DNA from: Candidatus Auribacterota bacterium | GTDB taxonomy: Bacteria; Auribacterota; JAFGBW01 | Direction: 5' to 3' | DNA: 16,914 nucleotides | Assembly: GCA_016932965.1 (NCBI GenBank) | Contig: JAFGBW010000058.1 | Location: forward strand, 1-16,914 | Part shown: positions 4,983 through 14,007 of the stretch, piece after piece | Layout of the letters: every line of letters starts with the position of its first letter | How positions within the stretch are numbered: the stretch's first letter is position 1 | Notes under the pieces: model-generated | Databases searched by the model: none | The model's input: the letters and a program-made list of their open reading frames with translations, nothing else | What the model was told of the DNA's origin: nothing | Made by a program: the position numbers and the translations under genes

Positions 4983-6127
4983 AAAATCCGGATATCATCA
5001 TGATCTCAGGGTCTGACTTCAGCCAGACAGATGGACCGGTTTTACATTTTTATTCCCTATTCAGGGCTTTGGATAAAATCCGGCCAGGAATTAAAGCGTA
5101 CGCTCATTTCAGAACCAATACCCCTGACTTTTCGGGTATTCATTATCTTCCGGCCTCACTGCCGGGCATGCTCGCTTCGCTGGAATTTCAAATCAGGTCA
5201 GGCTGGAAAATCATCATGACCTGTTTGACCCGGAAAACCAATTGTCTCTATATCAGAAGCCATTACATGATGTTCATGCCATGGATGTTATCCTGGCTCT
5301 TCCGGATCCCCATGATAACGGAATTCAATGGGATTATCGACGAATACAAACGCCCAAAATGGATTCTTGCATTCGGAAAAATCGTCGAAAAATTCCTGGC
5401 TCGAAAAAGCGCTGCAGTCATCTGCATTACCCAGGAGGTAAAGGAATGGATGATCAAACATTATTCTTTGAAGCCTGATAACATTTTTGTCATCTCCAAT
5501 GCAGCAGACCCCGGCCGGTTTGACGCGGAATACCGGATGGAAATGCGAACACCTTATCAATTGGATCTAAAGCAATTTATTGTCACTTTTGTCGGCAGTC
5601 TAACCTGGTGGCAGGGGGTTTCATTTTTTATTGAAGCAATACCGGAACTAGAAAAAAAAATCCCGGATCTAAAAGTCCTGATCATCGGCGACGGAGGGGA
5701 ATACCCGCATCTTGCCGTCTTGACAAAACAGCTGCATCTGGAATCAAGGGTTTACTTTGCTGGAAAAGTCAGTTCCCATGAAGCGGCACGATACATGCAA
5801 ATTTCTGACGTACTGATCCTTCCCAAGGTTCCTATTACCTGCTCCCCTTTAAAGCTTTATGAATACATGGCAGCCGGCAGACCTGTCGTGGCTTCGGACT
5901 TGCCTGGTTTTGAAATCGTCCAGGAAAGCGGGTGCGGAATCCTTGTCCCGCCAAAAAATCCCGCTGCGATCGCAGAAGCTGTGCTTAAATTGCATGATCT
6001 GACTCAGGATGAACGTCAAAAAATGGGTATGCGTGGTAGAAATAAAATAATTAAAGACCATACCTGGGATGCGGTAGCAATAAAAACATTGAAAATAATC
6101 GAAGAAAAATTGAAAACGGAGAATTAA
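4979..6127 (+). CDS. family 4 glycosyltransferase (GT-B fold)
   Basis: A 382-residue GT4-type enzyme. I chose the ATG at 4979, which overlaps the asnB stop in an ATGA junction and has a GGAG at 4967-4970 with eight bases of spacing; the ATG at 4961 in the same frame has no such site. Numbering from 4979, the C-terminal domain starts near FVGSLTWWQG (204-213), has IIGDGGEYPH (235-244) and carries SPLKLYEYMAAGRPVVAS, the donor-sugar site with the second Glu of the EX7E pair at E295. The first Glu is absent, as in many GT4 proteins with the xPxKLYEYMA form. A hydrophobic stretch near residues 96-113 may touch the membrane. It is the last gene of the + strand sugar run and meets an oppositely directed operon after 79 bases. 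Confidence 0.9.
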   Translation: MKNPDIIMISGSDFSQTDGPVLHFYSLFRALDKIRPGIKAYAHFRTNTPDFSGIHYLPASLPGMLASLEFQIRSGWKIIMTCLTRKTNCLYIRSHYMMFMPWMLSWLFRIPMITEFNGIIDEYKRPKWILAFGKIVEKFLARKSAAVICITQEVKEWMIKHYSLKPDNIFVISNAADPGRFDAEYRMEMRTPYQLDLKQFIVTFVGSLTWWQGVSFFIEAIPELEKKIPDLKVLIIGDGGEYPHLAVLTKQLHLESRVYFAGKVSSHEAARYMQISDVLILPKVPITCSPLKLYEYMAAGRPVVASDLPGFEIVQESGCGILVPPKNPAAIAEAVLKLHDLTQDERQKMGMRGRNKIIKDHTWDAVAIKTLKIIEEKLKTEN

Positions 6128-9878: not shown

Positions 9879-10736
9879 TTATTTTTTCTTGATCCACAAC
9901 GATCCTGGTATCCGTTGCGGATTCCATTTATATGACTTGATCAGACGGCGTACCAGTAAAGGATCGAGAAACCTGACATAAGATGCACAAACTAATACTT
10001 CATAATCGCTTCTATTGACGCTGTAGAAATCCAGCAATACCTGTGATTCCCCAAACACAGCAGGATCATCCTCATAACAAATATCGTATGGAAAAGTAAA
10101 ATCATGGTGGTGAATGATCACTCCCTCATGAAGTCGGGGCAGAATTTCCCTGCAATGAAAACGCGCTTCTTCAGTGGTGTGGCTTGAATCAATGAACAGA
10201 ATATCATTTTCTTTGAGTTCCAAAAATATTTCCGTGGACACATCCTCCACTTTCTCCTGTCTATGTTGAACGTTTATGGGCAGACTCCTTCGTGGTTCCG
10301 GATCAATGCTGATGATACGACCAGTCTTGTTTTTTTTCAAGGCATCCGCTGCGAAATGTGTTGAATGGCCGGATCCAATTTCGACAATCAAGCTGGGTTT
10401 ATATTGTCTTATGATTGAATAGTATAACTCTGGATCGATGGATACGAATGAACCATTATAGATTCTGCCCAAAGGCCATCTAAACTCCGCAATCCATGGA
10501 GTCACGATTGTTTCGAAATTCTTTACTGACGGCTCGAACAAGCTTTCATATTGAATGTAATTCTTCAGAACAATGGCTTTATCAGCCTGATACTTCAAAT
10601 GGTAGGACTTGAACAGCCACTCCTGATACGTCTGTACTGTCCTAAGCAGATAGAAAACAAAAGAAAGCCGTTTGATGTCTTTGAATTTTGCCTGAACAAA
10701 CTGCGGTAAAATTTTTTTAACAATCTGCTTTATCAT
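9879..10736 (-). CDS. class I SAM-dependent methyltransferase
   Basis: A 285-residue protein with a Rossmann methyltransferase domain from about residue 100. Motif I is IVEIGSGHS (117-125), the acidic residue after strand two is D145 in IISIDPEP, and strand four carries FIDSSH (181-186). HHHDFTFPYD at 209-218 follows strand five and resembles the HD motif of the Methyltransf_24 family, many of which methylate sugars or act in glycan clusters. The first 95 residues are a basic, partly helical extension with no obvious signal peptide. AGGA seven bases before the ATG is a good ribosome-binding site. It is the last gene of a - strand group with a pilin-like gene and a GT4 glycosyltransferase, so sugar O-methylation is a plausible but unproven role. 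Confidence 0.88.
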   Translation of the reverse strand: MIKQIVKKILPQFVQAKFKDIKRLSFVFYLLRTVQTYQEWLFKSYHLKYQADKAIVLKNYIQYESLFEPSVKNFETIVTPWIAEFRWPLGRIYNGSFVSIDPELYYSIIRQYKPSLIVEIGSGHSTHFAADALKKNKTGRIISIDPEPRRSLPINVQHRQEKVEDVSTEIFLELKENDILFIDSSHTTEEARFHCREILPRLHEGVIIHHHDFTFPYDICYEDDPAVFGESQVLLDFYSVNRSDYEVLVCASYVRFLDPLLVRRLIKSYKWNPQRIPGSLWIKKK

Positions 10737-10921
10737 CTTCTCATCCTGTTAATAGTGATTGCCGGACCAGTTATTCAGTAATGATCGTTCATTTTTCTCT
10801 TTCAAATAATGGAAGTTGCCAGAAAGAAAGCTCATTAAAATCTTGGTTTGTAAAGATGCATTAAAGCTGTTTTTTCGGCGCTCCCCTCACTGTAAGCCAA
10901 GTAGTTTGGTAGCCGGTGAAT
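10737..10921. other. intergenic spacer with no recognisable gene
   Basis: This 185-base spacer separates the pilin-like gene from the methyltransferase gene on the same strand. It contains the ribosome-binding site of the methyltransferase near 10744-10747. I found no open frame with a good start, no strong hairpin followed by a T run, and no convincing promoter pair (one TTGAAA-like hexamer on the complement has only a weak -10 partner). Confidence 0.5.
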
Positions 10922-11188
10922 TCATGGTATGAATTTTTGATATTGTTCAGACCGTTTTTTTGTCTTCTCATTGATCTGGTCCACCTGATTCTCCAAAGAC
11001 TTTTGAAGAGCTGCCGGTGATTTTGACTGAGAAGAAATACCGGTTTGCTGCATGGTATTTAAATAGGCCGGCAGCCAATACGCCATGATAATGCAGAGAA
11101 TTGCCAGCGCCAGCACCATGCTAAGCAAAGAAAATCCCTGATTTTCATTGACCTCAGCCGGGATATCATGATGCATACAATTTTTCAT
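10922..11188 (-). CDS. small type IV pilin-like (pseudopilin-like) protein lacking the +5 glutamate
   Basis: An 88-residue peptide if started at the ATG at 11188 (84 residues from the ATG at 11176; neither has a good ribosome-binding site). A short charged leader ends in NENQG, then comes FSLLSMVLALAILCIIMAYW, a long hydrophobic helix. The G18|F19 junction fits a prepilin peptidase site, but the residue at +5, normally Glu, is Ser23, as is tolerated in some GspK-like minor pseudopilins. The mature part is only about 70 residues, with a hydrophilic, coiled-coil-like tail ending in KKRSEQYQKFIP and no globular domain. The start overlaps the 3' end of the upstream GT4 gene by 11 to 23 bases, so translation is probably coupled. 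No other pilus or secretion gene is in the window. Function unknown. Confidence 0.65.
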   Translation of the reverse strand: MKNCMHHDIPAEVNENQGFSLLSMVLALAILCIIMAYWLPAYLNTMQQTGISSQSKSPAALQKSLENQVDQINEKTKKRSEQYQKFIP

Positions 11189-12278
11189 GTTTTTCAATGA
11201 TCCGTGAATGATCAAAAGGGTCAAAAAAGGAGACTGATTTTGGAACATAATAAAAAGGGCCTTTGAGAATTTCAAGTGAATAAGTAACCGCCTGCTTTAT
11301 ATCGAGATAAGGATAAATAAACCCCTGCTTCCCCTGTTCGAGCATATCGCTGATACCTCCTGCAGGAGTGGTCACGATAGGGACATGATAGTAAAGACAT
11401 TCTATCTGGGCCATGGAGAGCCCCTCATAACGGGAACAACTTAAAAATAAATTCATACGGGAATAGTACGGCTCCGTATTCTGGACAGCACCTGGAAAGA
11501 TCACTTTTTTAAGCCCGATTTTATGCGCAAAAGCTTGTGTCTTTTCCAATAACGGCCCTGTTCCTATGAAAACAAATTCTGCCTCCGGAACATGCCTGGA
11601 AATTCTGTGTGCAAGGAGTATCAATTCCAGGGGTCTTTTTTGCTCTTTAAAACTCAAAACGGATCCAATCAACAGATGGATACCTGATTTGTCTGATTTG
11701 GGAATGCTGGTATAAAAATCATGCATATCCTGAATCACAACATGCCTTTGTTCGGGACTCACCAGATTCATTTTTAGCGCTTCATCAAGGTTGGATTGGC
11801 AGACAAAAACCGTTCCCTGATTCCACCGGTTTAACCATTTTTCAAAAAAAACAAAACAGATACGAAAAAGAAAATTTCTGAAATAGGGGTGTCCAAAACC
11901 GTGATAAGTATGAAAAATATGTTTTATTCCGGCCAGAACAGCGGCCAATCTCCCCAGAATGGAAGGTTTGGAACAATGCGTATGCAAAAGATCGAATCGG
12001 TATTCGAGAAACAAAAAATATAGCTGAAACAAACAGATCAAATCAAATAAGGGATGAAATCGTCTTTGTAAATACTTGAGGCGGATCACGGTTGTTTTTT
12101 TCAATTCTGAAAAGCAACTCAGAAGGGGCCCCTTTTCACCATAAGCCAGATAAAGTTGATGTTGGGATTTTTTTTCCAGTTCTCGCAGCAGTCTGAAAGT
12201 GGAAATCTGCGCTCCTCCCAATTCAGCCGAGGTCATAAGATGACAAATTTTTTTTACTGTCATGGGAAAATTTCTCAT
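11166..12278 (-). CDS. family 4 glycosyltransferase (GT-B fold)
   Basis: A 370-residue GT4 enzyme. The N-terminal domain starts with ICHLMTSAELGGAQIS (11-26), where GGAQ is the glycine-rich donor loop, and has HTHCSKPSILGRLAA (99-113) and HTYHGFGHP (123-131). The C-terminal domain has IGSVLSFKEQKRP (204-216), FIGTGPLLE (237-245) and the EX7E motif from E285 to E293 in EGLSMAQIE, then VPIVTTPAGG. Start may be the ATG at 12278 or at 12263; the ribosome-binding evidence is weak for both. A hydrophobic patch near 78-92 may help membrane contact. The gene overlaps the small pilin-like gene at its 3' end. It fits sugar transfer to a lipid-linked or surface glycan; substrates are unknown. Confidence 0.92.
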   Translation of the reverse strand: MRNFPMTVKKICHLMTSAELGGAQISTFRLLRELEKKSQHQLYLAYGEKGPLLSCFSELKKTTVIRLKYLQRRFHPLFDLICLFQLYFLFLEYRFDLLHTHCSKPSILGRLAAVLAGIKHIFHTYHGFGHPYFRNFLFRICFVFFEKWLNRWNQGTVFVCQSNLDEALKMNLVSPEQRHVVIQDMHDFYTSIPKSDKSGIHLLIGSVLSFKEQKRPLELILLAHRISRHVPEAEFVFIGTGPLLEKTQAFAHKIGLKKVIFPGAVQNTEPYYSRMNLFLSCSRYEGLSMAQIECLYYHVPIVTTPAGGISDMLEQGKQGFIYPYLDIKQAVTYSLEILKGPFYYVPKSVSFFDPFDHSRIIEKHEKLYAS

Positions 12279-12386: not shown

Positions 12387-13328
12387 CTACTCTAGGGACA
12401 CCTTCACTTCCGAACCCTGTCCATGACCAAAGGAAATGATCAATTCAGCCGCCCCCTGCGGGATGGATACTCCGAATTCATTTCGTCCCTCATGAAGTCT
12501 TGTTGAAACCGGATTGGCCATCACCTGGCCTCCTATTTTTACGCTGATCGTGTTGATGAGTACAGGCATTTTCTGAGTGACATGAACATCCACGATCACT
12601 TTAGTATAATTCCTTGAGGCGGTATGAGAGCCGATGGAATACCGTTTGACCTCTTTTTCATAATTGGCTTTTGTAAATGAACCCAATAAAATCGGCTTCA
12701 TGACAACCGGCTTATCAGATTGCCTGTGTTTTTGATGATAGTGTCTCTTATCTTTATGTTTTCCTGGATAGCAATAAGGACAGCGTGTATAACCAGTCGA
12801 GTATCTCTTCTGACACTGTGAACAATAAAAATACTCTGATTCCTGGGGGAAAATGCTCACGAATTCATTCCTGCATTCCGGACATTCAAAAAAATAATAT
12901 CGGCTCAACATGGCGCCGCAATTACGGCAATAACTGCTGCCAGGATCATTGCCTTCTTCACATTTCGGGCAGATCCTGACAACCGAGTTAATATTCACGT
13001 TAAAATGCCGATTGCACTTGGGGCAGCGAACCGCATTCTGATTCAGGTTTATTTTTCTCCCGCAGCTGGAACAAAAAAAAGCACCGGGCTGATTCAACGC
13101 ATTGCAATAAGGACAAATAAATTGATCTGATCTTTTTCTTCCACATTTGGAGCAATAAGCAGCATCAGACTGATTATTGTATCCACAGGATGGACAATTC
13201 CACATCTGGTTCTGAACATTTGGCTGACCTCCTAATATACCCCCAAATAAATCGGATAGCTTATCTCCGGAAAAAGAAAAACAGCTTAATGAAAAAAATA
13301 GTATCAAGGCGGTTAATTTTCTTTTCAT
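12387..13328 (-). CDS. exported multi-zinc-ribbon protein with C-terminal beta-rich domain
   Basis: A 313-residue protein. It begins with a signal peptide (MKRKLTALILFFSLSCFSFS, cleavage likely near residue 20-21; Cys16 does not fit a clean lipobox). Ten CxxC pairs follow, at C45, C72, C102, C120, C149, C169 and so on: 45/48, 59/62, 72/75, 86/89, 102/105, 120/123, 134/137, 149/152, 169/172 and 183/186. Several are 14 residues apart, as in zinc-ribbon/double-zinc-ribbon domains (CPSCG...CSKCG), so about five metal sites are possible. A His/Lys-rich linker (188-205) leads to a beta-rich domain (about 212-313) of unknown family. AAGGAG five bases before the ATG is a strong ribosome-binding site. 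Export of a zinc-ribbon string is odd, since such domains are usually cytoplasmic. Function unknown. Confidence 0.88.
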   Translation of the reverse strand: MKRKLTALILFFSLSCFSFSGDKLSDLFGGILGGQPNVQNQMWNCPSCGYNNQSDAAYCSKCGRKRSDQFICPYCNALNQPGAFFCSSCGRKINLNQNAVRCPKCNRHFNVNINSVVRICPKCEEGNDPGSSYCRNCGAMLSRYYFFECPECRNEFVSIFPQESEYFYCSQCQKRYSTGYTRCPYCYPGKHKDKRHYHQKHRQSDKPVVMKPILLGSFTKANYEKEVKRYSIGSHTASRNYTKVIVDVHVTQKMPVLINTISVKIGGQVMANPVSTRLHEGRNEFGVSIPQGAAELIISFGHGQGSEVKVSLE

Positions 13329-13375
13329 TTATTCTCCTTTTTCATTCCATTATCTGACATCGCTTTAAAAAGGAT

Positions 13376-13404
13376 ATTATCTAAATATTTTTTAAAATTA
13401 GCAA
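13376..13404 (-). promoter_or_regulatory. putative sigma70-like promoter of the zinc-ribbon gene
   Basis: On the complement, a -35 TTGCTA (13404-13399) and a -10 GATAAT (13381-13376) are separated by exactly 17 bases. The start point would fall near 13369, giving a leader of about 40 bases with a strong AAGGAG before the ATG at 13328. Sequence prediction only. Confidence 0.5.
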
Positions 13405-13425
13405 AACAAAATATCAAAATATCTT

Positions 13426-13454
13426 TTTACCCTAATAAGGTGTTTTGTTATAGT
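13426..13454 (+). promoter_or_regulatory. putative sigma70-like promoter of folE giving a leaderless transcript
   Basis: TTTACC (13426-13431) and TATAGT (13449-13454) are separated by 17 bases. Seven bases after the -10 lies 13461, one base before the folE ATG at 13462. There is no purine-rich ribosome-binding site in front of the ATG (the bases are TTTCCTCC), which agrees with a leaderless mRNA. Sequence prediction only. Confidence 0.5.
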
Positions 13455-13461
13455 TTCCTCC

Positions 13462-14007
13462 ATGATGCACGATGCCATTATCAATATTTTACGCTCCATT
13501 GGAGAGGATCCGGAACGACCTGGTTTAATAAAAACTCCTGATCGGGTCGAAAAAACCTATCAATTTTTAACAAAAGGATATAAAGAGAATCCGGAAAAGA
13601 TATTGATATCCGCCATTTTTGATGAACCCTATGATGAGATGGTAGTCGTCAAAAACATCAATATTTATTCTTTATGTGAGCATCACCTCCTACCTTTCCA
13701 TGGGAAAGTCCATGTCGCTTACATACCGGACGGAAAAATCGTTGGACTCAGCAAAATACCCAGGGTCGTCGAAGCTTTTGCACGAAGACTCCAGGTGCAG
13801 GAAAGGCTGACACAGCAGATCGCCTTTTGCATTAATAATACCCTTCAACCAAAAGGAACTGCCGTAGTGATCGAAGCTTATCACCTGTGCCTCGCCATGC
13901 GCGGGGTTGAAAAGCAAAATGCCCATCTCATCACCAGTACGCTTCTAGGCAGATTTCGTTCAGACCGCGGAACTCGTCAGGAATTCATGAGCTTCATCAA
14001 GCAATAA
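13462..14007 (+). CDS. folE: GTP cyclohydrolase I (type IA)
   Basis: A 181-residue FolE enzyme, close to the usual bacterial length. It catalyses GTP to 7,8-dihydroneopterin triphosphate plus formate, the first step to folate and to queuosine-type deazaguanines. The zinc site is complete: C72 and H75 in [10 protein letters not shown] and C143 in [29 protein letters not shown] (95-114) and the final [15 protein letters not shown] are conserved family segments; H74 and H141 are the expected catalytic histidines. Two ATG codons are adjacent (13462 and 13465); neither has a Shine-Dalgarno, and a promoter places the transcript start at the first. It is divergent from the zinc-ribbon gene and not next to other folate genes. 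Confidence in the assignment is very high. Confidence 0.98.

Follow-up and report, generated by a model that had tools for sequence, protein, structure and literature searches.

Zinc ribbons are treated as markers of the cytoplasm, and a lineage that repeatedly exports them departs from that expectation. The locus described here raises the question of what a chain of such ribbons would do behind a signal peptide, and how its cysteines could stay loaded with metal outside the cytoplasm. The window (the whole stretch of 16,914 nucleotides that was analyzed) carries on its minus strand an open reading frame encoding 313 amino acids plus a stop; a preliminary description, which gave no strand, had reported an exported protein with multiple CxxC pairs at this position. 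That protein is real, and its leader, ten CxxC pairs, linker, and beta-rich domain were all confirmed (Table 1). We give about an even chance to the reading that it is a metal-stabilized envelope adaptor, in which a chain of ribbons presents a ligand-binding tip. This reading builds on the four parts just named, the homologues, and the recurrence of exported ribbons, all read from the sequence, and on a predicted fold of the C-terminal domain; that the ribbons are loaded with metal, that the envelope is reducing, and that the protein acts as an adaptor are the parts that we infer.

Table 1. Positions of the gene, its parts, and the upstream spacer in the window
Feature	Position	Strand	Basis
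Exported multi-zinc-ribbon protein gene	12387..13328	-	ATG plus AAGGAG; leader, ribbons, and C-terminal domain conserved in homologues
Signal peptide, SPase I type, aa 1-20 (MKRK...SFS/GDK)	13269..13328	-	n-region, core, small -3/-1 residues
Ten CxxC pairs, aa 45-186, ~five Cys4 zinc ribbons (DZR / Zn_Ribbon_1 type)	12771..13196	-	Pfam, spacing, count
His/Lys-rich linker, aa ~187-207	12708..12770	-	Sequence; homologue linkers
C-terminal beta-sandwich, aa 209-313, predicted carbohydrate-binding-module-like	12390..12704	-	AF2 model, structural matches
133-bp spacer to divergent folE (folE: 13462-14007, +)	13329..13461	.	ORF positions

Leader, zinc ribbons, and linker

The start codon is the ATG at 13328, preceded at a distance of a few bases by AAGGAG. 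The leader opens with an MKRK n-region of charge +3, continues with a hydrophobic core of 15 residues (aa 5 to 19; mean Kyte-Doolittle value, 2.14), and ends at a plausible cleavage site, SFS/GDK, with small residues at -3 and -1. Signal peptides were called by simple rules, which found leaders in all four homologues of full architecture, the window protein included, and in a ribbon-free homologue of the C-terminal domain; the homologue leaders end in VVVA/D, LALA/M, and TAFA/V. These leaders support the clear signal peptide and the export proposed in the preliminary description, and neither of the two outcomes that it had named as speaking against export, an uncleaved anchor facing the cytoplasm or a family of leaderless cytoplasmic homologues, was found. 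Even if the leader stayed uncleaved, the positive-inside rule would put the ribbons outside. A lipoprotein, which the same description had proposed to check for, was rejected: C16 is preceded by S-L-S, which is no canonical lipobox, and the homologues have no lipobox there. The gene product is predicted to be Sec exported and soluble, in the envelope or extracellular.

The ten CxxC pairs span C45 to C186 and account for 20 of the 20 mature cysteines. A chance origin of the pairs was rejected: over 20,000 shuffled versions of the sequence, the number of pairs averaged 1.3 and never exceeded 7, compared to the 10 observed. The pairs fall into CxxC...CxxC sets of four cysteines, as in a double zinc ribbon, and Pfam scored DZR (PF12773) at 63 bits over four stretches (cut-off, 27.3) and Zn_Ribbon_1 (PF13240) at 55.9 bits (cut-off, 25). 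The 20 paired cysteines and the His/Lys-rich linker noted in the preliminary description were both found. Pfam listed no rubredoxin match at an E value of ≤1 and no thioredoxin domain (WCGPC) in the window protein. In the full-length AlphaFold2 model (mean pLDDT, 61; pTM, 0.36) the ribbons were poorly predicted and give no reliable pairing; a nested pair at 102/149 is possible.

Homologues and surroundings of the gene

A homologue search covered 59 relatives and then 44 genomes of the phylum, and a ribbon search added one more homologue, in G020. The arrangement of leader, ribbons, basic or His-rich linker, and C-terminal domain is kept in four genomes of the phylum. The G001 homologue has the same order, with 40% identity overall; that of G012 has the linker HHHHHHDEPH, and that of G020 has a Lys-rich linker, KKKKHEKKHEKKH. 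The window, G001, G012, and G020 proteins contain 10, 8, 4, and 4 CxxC pairs and 20, 16, 8, and 9 mature cysteines, respectively. Only one of these cysteines, in G020, lies outside a CxxC pair (8 of 9 paired there), and such nearly complete pairing is as expected for Cys4 sites. The core common to all four consists of the first ribbon and the ribbon of C120/C134, and the extra pairs beyond it are insertions. A locus in Bosea was rejected as a relative, the match being a chance or ribbon-like one of 27 residues. Apart from the homologue, the G020 genome encodes a 1,057-aa protein with a signal-like N-terminus and no assigned domain (L216:4542-7715, +; G020:C23).

When the C-terminal domain was used as the query in 384 genomes, one further homologue was retrieved, from another phylum (G190), which consists of a signal peptide and the C-terminal domain and has no ribbons. 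The C-terminal domain is therefore an exported module in its own right, to which ribbons are added in variable number. Among the options offered by the preliminary description, a scaffold presenting the C-terminal domain is the best supported, ahead of a metal store or a sensor.

The gene is surrounded in the window by the divergent folE, glycan and capsule genes, and histidine kinases, and these surroundings do not decide between the explanations. A conserved operon was rejected, as the gene neighborhoods differ in G001, G012, and G020; gene context therefore gives no clue to function. In the upstream spacer there was no convincing regulatory palindrome, and by eye no Zur-like palindrome was recognized; both candidates were rejected, since the repeats there are weak and AT rich and the promoter matches are at chance level. 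Elsewhere in the window, a short ORF at 10922-11275 (-), which overlaps a glycosyltransferase ORF at 11166-12278, has a middle like a pilin-type hydrophobic N-terminus (NQGFSLLSMVLALAIL).

An alternative is that the protein is an extracytoplasmic buffer or scavenger of zinc or another metal, with several ions held by the ribbons and the His-rich linker and the C-terminal domain acting as an anchor. Consistent with this, the window protein combines 20 thiols with a His-rich linker, three homologues have 9 to 10 mature His residues (counted outside the leader), including a natural HHHHHH in G012, and the CxxC pairs expand from 4 to 10. However, zinc ribbons hold metal tightly and structurally, which is a poor fit to a store, and the G020 homologue, with its Lys-rich linker, has only 3 mature His residues. 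The neighbors (folE, glycan genes, and kinases) include no metal transporter in the window, the gene lacks a Zur-like palindrome recognizable by eye upstream, and the single-ribbon exported protease and thioredoxin proteins described below are unlike stores. We consider a metal buffer unlikely.

Predicted fold of the C-terminal domain

A construct of 105 residues (aa 209 to 313) was modeled by AlphaFold2 from a five-sequence alignment with a pLDDT of 93.3 and a pTM of 0.86. The model contains eight strands and no helix, and this confident prediction bears out the beta-rich C-terminal domain of the preliminary description. Comparison by Foldseek and VIA-align matched the predicted fold to 8pxu over most of the domain (Z score, 11.0), followed by 3gza (9.7), 6org (9.2), CBM35 2w1w (9.0), and CBM32 2v72 (8.2); most matches had Z scores of 7 to 9 at ~10% identity. 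By these matches the predicted domain stands nearest to carbohydrate-binding modules and to accessory domains of glycosidases, and it has the form of a galactose-binding-like beta-sandwich, a common fold and thus weak proof of kinship. In predicted fold it resembles CBM35/CBM32 and the accessory domains of GH29 and of an Akkermansia blood-antigen enzyme, but it differs from them in having no catalytic partner domain and no Pfam family, at ~10% identity; the Pfam search found none under HMMER filters that limit weak matches. Binding of a ligand, such as a glycan, is suggested but not proved by the model, since the fold is widespread.

In the adaptor reading, the mature protein left by signal cleavage would carry about five Cys4 zinc ribbons in a row, joined through a basic His-rich linker to a beta-sandwich resembling carbohydrate-binding modules. 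Each ribbon would most likely act as a small metal-stabilized unit for folding and protein contact. Lined up, the ribbons could serve as a stalk or adaptor whose length varies and which carries a ligand-binding tip, probably directed at a glycan or an envelope polymer.

Exported ribbons elsewhere in the genome and beyond

Searching G000, the genome that contains the window, with DZR, independently of any profile built in the analysis, identified nine genes; six of them have a leader or N-terminal hydrophobic segment immediately before the ribbon. These six are the window gene, two aspartyl proteases (Pfam E values, 3.7e-17 and 3.1e-15), a thioredoxin (4.1e-9), a TPR protein (below the cut-off), and a double-ribbon/beta protein, which may keep its hydrophobic segment as an uncleaved anchor. 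A profile of exported ribbons added a J-domain protein (L107:16417-17085, +; G000:C154; DnaJ E value, 3.2e-12), and the genome has at least six exported-ribbon proteins besides the window gene. The J-domain protein consists of a leader, a zinc ribbon, one transmembrane (TM) segment, and the J-domain; its ribbon and J-domain are on opposite sides of the TM segment, so that the ribbon would be outside if the J-domain is cytoplasmic, and a trans-envelope co-chaperone with an outside ribbon is possible. G001 has counterparts of the aspartyl protease and thioredoxin ribbon proteins.

Among the loci matched by the ribbon profile, a leader directly before the ribbon was found at 9 of 11 in the order, which is not an unbiased rate, the loci having been chosen partly as exported. 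In the rest of the phylum, 1 of 31 loci was genuine (G020); G012, which has the full architecture, is not among these 31. In other phyla 3 of 62 were genuine, all in G146. Two loci were rejected from this count, L071 as an antisense reading and L210 for its non-signal N-terminus. The profile was built from exported ribbons and its bias favors exported cases; the rarity elsewhere is therefore meaningful. In G146 (L187, L201, and L212), ribbons stand behind leaders on two PEGA-domain proteins (E values, 5e-20 and 7e-23) and on a barrel-like protein, which has the look of an outer-membrane barrel and a terminal GLGFRF and received no barrel family from Pfam. The design apparently spread there independently.

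It is conceivable, although we hold it to be quite unlikely, that the exported ribbon is a general envelope module, a folded, metal-dependent N-terminal tag, set after the signal peptide, that would dock or sort unrelated proteins to a common partner in a thiol-reduced envelope; such a module would have its scope in the order and, separately, in another phylum (the PEGA and barrel-like proteins).

Other proteins of the same genome carry similar parts in other forms. A lipoprotein (L110:3404-3748, +; G000:C66) with the lipobox FFSGC and a glycine zipper (Pfam Gly-zipper_Omp, 6e-9) carries a CxxC ribbon at its C-terminus and thus adds another exported ribbon, its parts in reversed order. Two small paralogous proteins (L109:3027-3347 and 5405-5785, -; G000:C295) have a leader and CxxC pairs, the second pair lacking one cysteine in one of the two.

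Redox setting of the envelope

Neither the disulfide-forming partners VKOR and DsbB nor the oxidases haem-copper oxidase (COX1) and cytochrome bd were found in the window's own genome, which is 92.6% complete, so that families may lie in its gaps; the searches matched controls such as E. coli. Apparently, the organism, an uncultivated bacterium, is oxygen independent or an anaerobe. In 530 kb of its contigs, soluble ORFs predicted as exported by a crude signal call showed no even-cysteine bias (26 even to 33 odd counts), and cysteine content was 0.85% in predicted exported ORFs compared to 1.48% in other ORFs. In bacteria, a surplus of even cysteine counts among exported proteins tends to go with the presence of DsbA and DsbB/VKOR, and obligate anaerobes tend to keep cysteines out of exported proteins (PMC12453122). 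The preliminary description had allowed for thiols outside the cytoplasm if they were metal loaded or the habitat anoxic, and this proviso fits both the missing VKOR, DsbB, COX1, and cytochrome bd and the lack of an even-cysteine bias.

A DsbD-like gene (L106:8614-10332, -; DsbD_TM E value, 1.6e-16; C-terminal thioredoxin) lies ~90 bp from, and divergent to, the gene for the exported ribbon-thioredoxin (10418-11029, +; G000:C144). The pairing suggests reductant delivery to the envelope and thus makes reduced, metal-loaded ribbons outside the cytoplasm plausible; it is not kept in G001, where the ribbon-thioredoxin has other neighbors. The cysteines of the proposed adaptor could stay metal loaded because the host is an apparent anaerobe with no dedicated thiol-oxidizing system detected and with a DsbD-type exporter and a ribbon-thioredoxin. 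Repeated export, the lack of a detected disulfide-forming quinone partner, and DsbD beside a ribbon-thioredoxin suggest that the folds usable outside can depend on how oxidizing or reducing the envelope is. Exported ribbons would then be expected to track the loss of VKOR/DsbB across anaerobic lineages, which offers a direct genomic test.

The same setting bears on two alternatives to the adaptor. In one, to which we give only a slim chance, the CxxC knuckles bind Fe in a rubredoxin-like manner or cycle between dithiol and disulfide, and the protein is an envelope carrier of electrons or thiols, fed by the ribbon-thioredoxin and DsbD. The knuckles are of the CPxCGY type and resemble those of rubredoxin; DsbD and the ribbon-thioredoxin are divergent neighbors in the genome, in which (92.6% complete) neither the oxidases nor the quinone partners that form disulfides were detected. 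On the other hand, Pfam gives DZR and Zn_Ribbon_1 and no rubredoxin at an E value of ≤1, the window contains no gene for a cofactor partner, and DsbD is absent beside the G001 thioredoxin. In the other, which we consider just as improbable, the ribbons become oxidized outside the cell, and the protein is an ordinary cysteine-rich repeat held by disulfides. In aerobes, the CxxC cysteines of exported proteins are normally oxidized, but no VKOR, DsbB, or aerobic terminal oxidase was found here, the exported ORFs have no even-cysteine bias, and the profile scores are those of canonical Cys4 ribbons.

Relation to known ribbon proteins

The window protein has the same knuckles and spacing as the double zinc ribbon families (PF12773 DZR/PF13240 Zn_Ribbon_1). 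The usual DZR members examined are cytoplasmic proteins that begin with the ribbon or proteins that have it in a cytoplasmic tail, whereas here about five ribbons follow a cleavable leader. Single-TM proteins of the TcaA/YvbJ type have a cytoplasmic ribbon, placed before the TM segment, and another domain outside. The window protein shares with them a ribbon near the N-terminus and another domain outside, but its hydrophobic segment (aa 5 to 19) comes before the first ribbon (aa 45), an arrangement that places the ribbon outside. Thioredoxin-2 (TrxC) joins a ribbon to a thioredoxin in the cytoplasm; the companion ribbon-thioredoxin of the window's own genome is the same fusion but carries a leader, and the window protein differs from TrxC in having no thioredoxin domain. 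The domains of the window protein are thus known ones, and it is their location and combination that are unusual. Membrane-linked ribbons have been assigned to the cytoplasm (PMC12419801; PMC10030591), and we found no description of exported zinc ribbons in the open-access literature, subscription papers being outside the scope of the search.

Least probable of all is that the protein is cytoplasmic, its start having been misjudged or its leader being non-working: zinc ribbons are overwhelmingly cytoplasmic, and nearly all matching ribbons in other phyla are at cytoplasmic positions, but leaders in 4 of 4 homologues and in the ribbon-free relative, the AAGGAG just upstream of the leader's ATG, and the genome-wide recurrence of signal-ribbon fusions argue against it. 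A different placement of the ribbon was seen by eye in SpoVG-like proteins of many genomes of the phylum (L043, L056-L062, L077, and L084), which carry a zinc ribbon at the C-terminus.
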